Shown here one piece after another: positions 9,261 to 41,931 of a stretch of DNA of 64,000 nt. The stretch lies in the NCBI RefSeq assembly GCF_002464935.1, contig NZ_NBYY01000022.1, positions 1 to 64,000 of the forward strand. Reading direction: 5' to 3'. Source of the DNA: Candidatus Enterovibrio escicola. Its GTDB lineage: Bacteria; Pseudomonadota; Gammaproteobacteria; Enterobacterales; Vibrionaceae. The stretch's first letter is position 1. Each line of letters begins with the position of its first letter. The notes under the pieces were generated by a model, which saw only the letters and a program-made list of their open reading frames with translations, made no database searches and was not told the DNA's origin. A program made the translations under genes and the position numbers.

Positions 9261-9308
9261 AAAATGAAATAAAAAGTTGCTGAGCCTGAAACTTACTCTT
9301 CGTAACTA
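9261..9308 (+). mobile_element. IS903-like fragment, 48 bp before the C-terminal tail
   Basis: The sequence aaagttgctgagcctgaaacttactcttcgta encodes the KQLLSPKLTLRN stretch of the IS903-like transposase. It is interrupted by an IS982 left end at the same codon (after LRN) as in the copy at 17038-19084. Confidence 0.6.
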
Positions 9309-9433
9309 ACCTGAGCTACGCATAAGAAATGAACTAAATGCCCAAGTCTTTATGCAGTCGATAGTTCTTTTCAAAAGACTCAGATCGCTACTTTGCATTT
9401 AGTTCATTTCTTATGCGTAGCTCAGGTTAGTTA
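9303..9433. repeat. Perfect 39-bp inverted repeat built from two IS982 left ends
   Basis: The arm at 9303-9341 (taactaacctgagctacgca...) is exactly complementary to the arm at 9395-9433, with a 53-nt spacer. Both arms are IS982 left ends that point at each other, so the element leader has been inverted and joined to itself. Confidence 0.9.
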
Positions 9434-26487: not shown

Positions 26488-27424
26488 ACCTGAGCTACGC
26501 ATAAAAAATGAATTAAATACCCAAGTCGTGATCCAATCGTTTGAAAGAAACCATTGACTGAACAAGGATTTGGGTATGAATAACTTAAACGATGTGTGCC
26601 ATATTTTCCTCCCTACATGGGAAAAACACCTAATTTTTCCGGTAACAAACAAAGAAACAAGCATTTTCGCCTCTTAGTTAGCAAAGTGATGACGATAGTG
26701 ATAGCTTTCCATCAATCTGGGTATCAAGACTTCAGAACCTATTACATCCACTTTTTTTACCGCTACCTCACCAACGAATTTCTTGAATTAGTTAGCTACA
26801 TGAAAATGTTCAATCTCATGCAAGGTGTTCTGGTTTCTATTTGCTCTTATCTCATTCACCGTCAGGAATTGCCTTCGTTGATTTATCCAAGCTACAGGTT
26901 TGTCATAACCTACAAATTATCAGATATCAGATTTTTAAAGGTACCGTGAAGCGAGGAAAAGAAACGATGGGTAGTTCTACGGTTTCAAATTACACATTAT
27001 GATCAATGATCAAGGTGGCATTATCTCAGTCAAAGTGACGACGGCTAACATGGATGATAGAAAGCCTATATCAGAAATGATTGACGAGCTTTGGGGGTAT
27101 TTATACGGAGATAAAGGTTATATATCTGGTCCATTGGAACGGGAACTTTCAGACAAGGTAGTGATACTGATGACGGATATAAAAAATACGAAACCCAAAG
27201 TGATAAAACTTTAGAACCGCCTGATGCTCCGGAAATGATTTATTATCGAAACCGTTTTTGACCAACTAAAAAACATATCCCAAATCGAATATTCTCAGCA
27301 CCGCTGTTGTATCAGATTTATGGTCAACTTTCTAGCGGGGCTTATCGCGGATTCATTTTAACCAAAAAATCCGAGCATCAATATGGCTAGGTTTGATAAG
27401 AAATCGCTTATGCAGGTCTGAGGT
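26488..27424 (+). mobile_element. IS982-family element, full length, inactive
   Basis: Left end acctgagctacgcataaa at 26488, right end cttatgcaggtctgaggt ending at 27424 (937 bp). The transposase start ATG at 26576 is kept, but the frame is broken. N-terminal ORF 26596-26949 (VMTIVIAFHQSGYQDFRTYY) and C-terminal ORF 26999-27214 (MDDRKPISEMIDELWGYLYG). The leader hairpin has a compensated base pair (see findings). Confidence 0.9.
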
Positions 27425-36396: not shown

Positions 36397-36677
36397 ACCT
36401 GAGCTGCGCATAAGAAATGAACTATATGCCCAAGTCGCGATCTGACCGTTTGAAAAAAACCATTGACTGCATAAGGACTTGGGCATGAATAACTCAGACG
36501 CTATTTTCGTCAATTTCTGCTAAACTTTCCTCCCTGCATGGAAAAAACACCTAATTTCTTCTGGTGTCAAACAAAGAAATAAGCCTTTTCATCCCTCAGT
36601 TAGCGAAGTGATGACGATAGTGATAGTTTTCCATCAATCGGGATATAGAGACTTCAAAACCTATTACATCCACTTTT
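36397..36677 (+). mobile_element. IS982-family 5' fragment with perfect leader hairpin
   Basis: Left end acctgagctgcgcataag at 36397 flanked by ttaatta. The leader, start ATG at 36485 (MNNSDAIF) and N-terminal coding region run to about 36677, where similarity stops (catccactttt). The leader holds an uninterrupted 11-bp stem over the start codon. Confidence 0.82.
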
Positions 36678-38983: not shown

Positions 38984-39416
38984 ACCTGAACTGCGGATAA
39001 GAAATGAACTAAATGCCAAAGCCGTGATCTGATCGTTTAAAAAACTATCGACTGCATAAGAACTTTGGCATAAATAACTTAGACGCTGTTTTCGTCAAAG
39101 TCGGCGACTTCTGCCAGATTCTCCTCCTTGCCTGGGCAAAATACCTCATTTCTTCCGGTATCAAACAAAGAAACAAGCCTTTTCTTTTCTCAGTTAGCGA
39201 AGTGACGACGATAGTGATAGCTTCCCATCAGTTTGGGTATTGAGACTTCAAGACTTATTACATCCACTTTATTTGCTTTTGCCTCACCAACAAATTTCCT
39301 GAATTAGTCAGCTACCCGCGAATGCCCAAGCTTATGCAAGGTTTTCTGGTACCGCTTTGCTCTTACCTCACTCACCGTTAGGGATTGCCTTTGTTGATTC
39401 GTCCAAACTACAGGTT
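38984..39416 (+). mobile_element. IS982-family 5' fragment fused to an IS903-like tail
   Basis: Left end acctgaactgcggataag at 38984. The transposase N-terminal region continues, frameshifted, to about 39416 (FVDSSKLQV), where it joins the IS903-like tail through a shared caggtt. Start codon is ATA. Confidence 0.82.
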
Positions 39417-41173: not shown

Positions 41174-41931
41174 GGATGAGCCCCGCCAGCAAGTTGACCA
41201 TAAAGCTGATACAACTACGGTGCTGAGAATGTTCGATTTGGGATATGTTTTTTAGTTGGTCAAAACAGTTTCAATAATAAATAATTTCCTGAGCATCAAG
41301 CAGTCCTAAAGTTTCATCACTTTGGATTTCATATTTTTTTCACACTCATTATTAGTGTTACTCTCTTGTCTGCAAGTTCCCGCTCTAATGAACCATATAT
41401 AACCTTTATCGCCGTTATAACCACTCATTGTTCCTTTCCTCGCTTCGCGGTACCTTTAAAAACCTGATGTCTAAAAATGCGTAGGTTGTGACAAACCTGT
41501 AGCGTGGACGAATCAACGAAGGAAATTCCTGTTGGCCTTGCCTGACTGTGAGTGAGGTAAGACAAATCGAAACCAGAACACCTTGCATGAGATTGAGCAT
41601 TCGCGTGTAGCTGACTAATTCTCGTTGGTGAGGCAGAGGCAAACAAAGTGGATGTAATAGGTCTTGAAGTCTCAATACCCAGACTGATGGGAAGCTATCA
41701 CTATCGTCGTCACTTCGCTAACTGAGAGAAAAGAAGGCTTGTTTCTTTGTTTGATACCGGAAGAAATTAGGTATTTTGCCTAGGCAGGGAGGAGAATCTG
41801 GCAGAAATCGCTGACTTTAACGAAAACAGCGTCTAAATTATCTATGCCCAAGTTCTTATACAGTCAATAGTTTTTTAAACGATCAGATCGCAACTTAGGC
41901 ATTTAGTTCATTTCTTATGCGCAGCTCAGGT
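41174..41931 (-). mobile_element. IS982-family element lacking its right end
   Basis: On the minus strand the left end is at 41931 (ctgcgcagctcaggt complement), and the element runs to about 41174, lacking the last ~60 bp. The start codon reads ATA. Minus ORFs 41675-41415 and 41646-41425 (SLTVRQGQQEFPSLIRPRYR region) are out of frame with the rest. The leader stem is kept by a compensating change. Confidence 0.83.

Follow-up and report, generated by a model that had tools for sequence, protein, structure and literature searches.

An IS982 copy that begins at position 36397 of the analysed DNA (the window, 64,000 nucleotides of contig NZ_NBYY01000022.1 from Candidatus Enterovibrio escicola) carries a hairpin over the start codon of its transposase gene. 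Is this hairpin an RNA structure that was kept by selection, and if so, among which elements can the selection be traced and what would the structure do? In IS10/Tn10 and IS50/Tn5, read-through hairpins protect the element from external promoters, a protection that was reportedly the subject of Davis et al. in 1985. Translation-blocking hairpins of this kind have so far been worked out for a few single elements, and with the IS982 family one can test to what extent insertion sequences protect themselves against host transcription.

An 11-bp stem covers the transposase start at 36397

The first-pass annotation of the window had claimed an uninterrupted 11-bp stem whose 3′ arm lies over the translation start. 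The hairpin was confirmed at 36426–36436 and 36476–36486, where that annotation had placed it. The arms are 100% complementary, and the right arm overlaps the Shine-Dalgarno-like AAGGA and ends on the AT of the ATG. The leader contains the following features:

36397–36414, plus strand: left end of the IS982 copy (terminal inverted repeat side), ACCTGAGCTGCGCATAAG; the end motif recurs in the genome
36419–36422, plus strand: GAAC block, −35-like in a putative promoter; the spacing of AAC, 16 nt and GATCnGATC is the same here
36426–36436, plus strand: left arm of the stem, ATGCCCAAGTC, inside the 16-nt gap at 36423–36438
36439–36447, plus strand: GATCTGACC, a decayed GATCnGATC block with Dam sites and a candidate −10 role
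36473–36477, plus strand: AAGGA, Shine-Dalgarno-like
36476–36486, plus strand: right arm of the stem, GACTTGGGCAT, overlapping the start codon
36485–36487, plus strand: ATG of the transposase relic, whose frame stops after 12 codons

The stem was better than those of 1000 of 1000 dinucleotide shuffles, and the fold of the leader had a z-score of −3.4, with 2 of 200 shuffles equally stable. Opening the start region was predicted to cost 12.6 kcal/mol, compared with 8.5 kcal/mol in shuffles (p = 0.065, a marginal value for one decayed copy), and 5.2 kcal/mol when the transcript starts after the left arm. Membership of the IS982 family was judged by a transposase match to NF033520 above the cut-off, which was exceeded by many elements of this genome and of the relatives used. 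The broken transposase relic of the 36397 copy was absent among the listed NF033520 matches, and its leader aligns with the leaders of intact IS982 elements.

Copies within the genome show no clear compensatory change

The first-pass annotation had also cited three other copies in which the arms differ in sequence and still pair, and had taken such changes among the copies of this genome as evidence of selection. All three stems exist; in the copies at 38984 and 41931, ATA stands in place of the ATG:

26517–26577, plus strand: stem of the copy at 26488, ATACCCAAGTC (26517–26527) with GATTTGGGTAT (26567–26577); 11 pairs, one G-U
39013–39071, plus strand: stem of the copy at 38984, ATGCCAAAG (39013–39021) with CTTTGGCAT (39063–39071); start codon now ATA
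41844–41902, minus strand: stem of the copy at 41931, ATGCCTAAGTT (41902–41892) with AACTTGGGCAT (41854–41844); 11 pairs, one G-U; start codon now ATA

Of the 11 window leaders that could be aligned over both arms, only 3 retained every pair of the 11-bp stem, G-U included; the cited copies thus represent the best of a heterogeneous set. In the genome as covered here (2,645,619 bases in 39 contigs), the element-end motif occurred 355 times at up to three mismatches, compared with 0 + 1 for the reversed control motif. After 12 of 111 alignments had been left out (arm missing, or duplicate), 99 distinct leaders remained, among which right arms were dealt anew and each cell was scored as a standard pair or not. 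The observed pairing, 901 of 1089 cells, was not clearly above the permuted mean of 892 (sd 5.3) and was reached in 105 of 2000 permutations. A recount on MAFFT columns gave 900 versus 893 (213/2000), and removal of the two palindromic copies from these columns gave 880 of 1067 versus 873 (200/2000). When copies were sampled by the element end with the arms disregarded (60 stretches fetched, 47 with a usable leader), 410 of 517 cells were paired versus 411 in permutations (1225/2000). Subfamily consensus arms within the genome showed no paired switch.

Variation among the copies was 0.61 bits in the arm columns versus 0.48–0.58 bits across the loop, Shine-Dalgarno and first-codon columns, and the most variable columns were those with consensus G and C. 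It was lower at the element end (0.33 bits) and in the stretch behind it (0.23 bits), partly because copies were sampled by that end. At pair 36431/36481, the commonest combination was A opposite G, a mismatch present in 36 of the 99 copies.

Because pairing was close to the permuted level, only 3 of 11 window leaders kept every pair and two cited copies had lost the ATG, this genome's copies cannot carry the argument from compensatory change. The strain MJ02 of 'Candidatus Enterovibrio escacola' (spelled escicola at NCBI) lives as a symbiont of an anglerfish and has 333 IS982 transposase genes, and every transposase of the two symbiont genomes in that report was classed as a pseudogene (PMC6020299). 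The best explanation is that the IS982 copies here are relics in which the stem was inherited and is being lost; compensatory change should not be sought among the copies of a single degenerate genome.

The stem recurs across the IS982 family

IS982 loci were collected from relatives, from the order, from the class and, by a scan that gave the best 80 of 523, from named genomes containing one intact transposase. In the search of relatives, 9 of 13 loci outside the own genome were left out as fragments or repeats. The total of 123 loci gave 107 usable ones (16 were dropped for want of an N-terminus or a start; L150 was masked) and, after removal of near-duplicates, 77 distinct leaders. For each, the best ungapped stem between the upstream leader and the start region was scored against shuffles and against partners swapped between elements.

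A significant stem over the start (shuffle p < 0.05) was found in 50 of the 77 leaders. Swapped partners gave p < 0.05 for 42, the mean score being 22.5 for own partners and 14.4 (sd 3.5) for swapped ones. When the same upstream stretch was paired with three places inside the gene, only 1, 5 and 4 of the 77 leaders were positive, and other ORFs of the same loci had a stem in 5 of 80 cases (37 of 117 control ORFs were left out). A folding test that does not require an ungapped stem was positive for 53 of 77 leaders versus 6 of 77 other ORFs. Nineteen leaders were negative in both tests.

The right arm ended at a median of −1 relative to the start codon. Among the 51 stem-positive leaders, opening of the region from −14 to +3 was calculated to cost 14.1 kcal/mol with both arms present versus 4.1 kcal/mol when the leader was cut after the left arm. 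Each of the 51 leaders had the higher cost with both arms present; with the left part shuffled, the cost was 6.9 kcal/mol. The stem is thus predicted to bury the Shine-Dalgarno sequence and/or the start codon, as do leader hairpins of the IS10, IS50 and IS200 type.

Stem-positive leaders carried the labels Pseudomonadota, Chloroflexota, Cyanobacteriota, Acidobacteriota, Planctomycetota, Bacteroidota and others; several come from metagenome bins, whose label may be wrong. Plasmid-borne members had a significant stem in 7 of 10 cases: a Vibrio element, a Xenorhabdus element, IS982B, ISLll1 (with arms identical to those of IS982B), ISLgar2, ISEfm1 and ISGsp1. The folding test was passed by 6 of these 10 members; ISGsp1 did not pass it (p = 1.00), and ISLgar2 and ISLgar3 stood at 0.05. 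A plasmid-borne Levilactobacillus element was positive in the folding test only, and a Streptomyces one was negative in both tests. A search of 11 loci against Rfam 15 returned no family at its gathering score; one sub-threshold match, on the minus strand, reached 27.7 bits versus the 47 required (E = 0.49).

In a distant IS982 subgroup, L075 and L077 have a quite different arm pair over the start, which in L075 is GGCATGATCT with AGATCATGCC; the start of L077 reads ATA.

The arms covary between distinct elements

Covariation was analysed in the gammaproteobacterial group of elements that carry GATCnGATC, comprising 29 distinct arm pairs whose right arms were aligned at the last GC ahead of the start (L085 left out). 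Of 261 cells, 240 were paired, compared with 191 (sd 5.8) after permutation, and none of 2000 permutations was as high. In slid registers, 37–51% of cells were paired.

A quick transposase tree of 72 rows (5 of the 77 had short proteins and were left out) contained 21 tips from this group. Parsimony placed on it 16 double Watson–Crick changes in the true register versus 2, 3 and 3 in slid registers, with ties broken towards Watson–Crick pairs in true and slid registers alike. On the same 21 tips, eight one-sided changes kept pairing through G-U and ten broke a pair.

For 14 leaders in which the arm abuts the ATG, that of the window included, RNAalifold on an alignment built from sequence only recovered precisely this 11-bp stem. 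Six of its pairs had changes in both arms, and the covariation score was reached by 0 of 500 shuffles. The full 25-row alignment, in which the arm-to-ATG gap varies and the arms do not share a register with the ATG, gave no pair. The first-pass annotation had suggested that a stem over the translation start was once under selection. The statistical covariation test bears this out between distinct IS982 elements (0/2000) and not among the copies of this genome (105/2000). These comparisons support the view that selection for the stem acted in the past, within the IS982 family. The structure can be traced with covariation through a family of several bacterial phyla, named plasmid-borne members included.

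Putative promoter layout and a proposed mechanism

GATCnGATC was found in 35 of the 107 usable loci. In 30 of the 30 distinct leaders that hold it, AAC lies exactly 16 nt upstream, and the left arm fills the gap. In the same leaders the distance to the left end takes 9 values and that to the start 10. A sigma-70 matrix scan showed no enrichment of sites downstream of the left arm, where the best site fell in 30 of 51 stem-positive leaders versus 53% in shuffles.

Between the arms an ACCAA motif recurs, for example in L062, L137 and L167: the GATCnGATC group has it in 13 of 20 leaders, where 1.3 would be expected, and the other leaders in 11 of 29, where 3.2 would be.

Our computations establish the stem, its position, its covariation and a predicted burial of the start when both arms are present. 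A polymerase entering from flanking DNA would make a transcript that holds both arms; the arms would pair and bury the Shine-Dalgarno sequence and AUG, so that little transposase would be made. The element's own transcript, starting downstream of the left arm and lacking it, would be translatable. GAAC and GATCnGATC may be the element's weak promoter, perhaps gated by Dam, with transcripts beginning past the left arm. We infer this downstream start, the block to translation and the link to Dam; the own-promoter step is drawn from the layout and the analogy with IS10 and IS50, because the matrix scan gave no support.

By that analogy, the layout would suit silencing of read-through transcripts. 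The IS10 and IS50 transposase promoters hold Dam sites (PMC4265352, PMC5006887), as would the putative IS982 promoter, and in all three the proposed role of the stem is to conceal the start when a transcript reads in from outside. The IS982 elements differ in that their transposase is of another family, their arms covary across distant elements and their promoter is read from the layout. IS200 has a stem-loop that occludes the ribosome site, as proposed here, and also a second, terminator-like stem (PMC3196728) that was not seen in IS982 leaders. In ISPpu9, too, a structured leader hides the transposase ribosome site; there, however, the structure forms in the mRNA of the transposase, and its opening is ascribed to an antisense RNA (PMC8450116). 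'Mobile attenuators', 5′ terminators of insertion sequences, likewise keep the transposase silent in transcribed DNA (PMC2965389), but they act on transcription and need a T-run, which the stem-positive IS982 leaders lack.

A leader hairpin over the start is not described in the accessible text of the 2020 review of the IS982 family (PMC7335449), and early hairpins noted for five Amoebophilus elements do not, in the available part of that report, include its IS982 member (PMC3196728). Our search of the literature on IS982 and on transposase leaders found no earlier description of an IS982 hairpin; older subscription work may exist. The kind of device is already known, and its spread through IS982 seems to be undescribed in the literature searched.

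We consider it likely, by a fair margin, that the stem regulates IS982-family elements at the RNA level and is a widespread guard against read-through transcription, like those of IS10, IS50 and IS200. In many IS982 elements, from proteobacteria to cyanobacteria and lactococci, the arms of a hairpin over the transposase start have co-evolved, and this hairpin probably stops translation of read-through transcripts into transposase. More tentatively, and with somewhat less than even confidence, we propose an old IS982 riboregulator across phyla in which the left arm also serves as spacer in the element's own promoter, paired Dam sites gate that promoter in Gammaproteobacteria and the hairpin DNA seeds palindromic miniatures by strand switching. 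If the left arm is indeed the promoter spacer, one DNA stretch would both set promoter spacing and arm an RNA switch.

Alternative explanations

Alternatively, every transposase transcript, the element's own included, could contain the stem, which would then dampen translation at all times and might, as reported for ISPpu9, be unfolded by an antisense RNA or a protein. The comparable structured 5′-UTR of ISPpu9 (PMC8450116) and a sigma-70 scan that does not place the promoter are in keeping with this; we nevertheless regard it as rather unlikely, given that the conserved blocks of the GATCnGATC group straddle the left arm at fixed spacing, as expected of a promoter lying across it. Selection on RNA would not be needed if strand switching at a DNA hairpin kept the arms alike by copying one into the other. 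Palindromic miniature copies with their junction at this hairpin exist in the own genome, and parsimony places both sides of many changes on one branch. However, stems were found at the start codon and not at the other places tested, the eight inferred one-sided changes that keep a G-U pair are as in stepwise change, and in distant groups the placement of the stem over the start calls for more than strand switching. Such homogenisation may contribute; as the explanation of the stem it is improbable.

The arms lie close to the left end, as subterminal transposase binding sites would, yet they are among the least conserved parts of the GATCnGATC group (1.05 bits versus 0.40 for the GAAC block), and a left-arm 8-mer recurs near the right end in 0 of 45 elements (0.8 expected), which makes a DNA role of this sort very improbable. 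A leader peptide or a transcription terminator is less credible still. The 36397 copy does have an ORF that runs from the left arm and ends on the transposase ATG, but of the 51 stem-positive leaders 25 have no ATG or GTG in the left arm; in 10 the frame ends early, in 12 it extends to the start and in 4 it continues past it. An intrinsic terminator or attenuator was rejected, since a T-run follows the stem in 0 of these 51 leaders. The reading that we prefer remains a guard against read-through transcription.

Palindromic miniatures joined at the hairpin

Palindromic miniatures of about 120 bp were observed at 9307–9429 of the window and also at L056 and L057. They consist of the stretch from the left end to the right arm of the hairpin, followed by the left end inverted, with the junction at the hairpin arm. 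The full sequence was read for three, and three more places match the junction motif (6 of 28 motif matches, the rest being ordinary left ends). Miniature elements derived from IS982 are known from Cardinium (PMC9769881).
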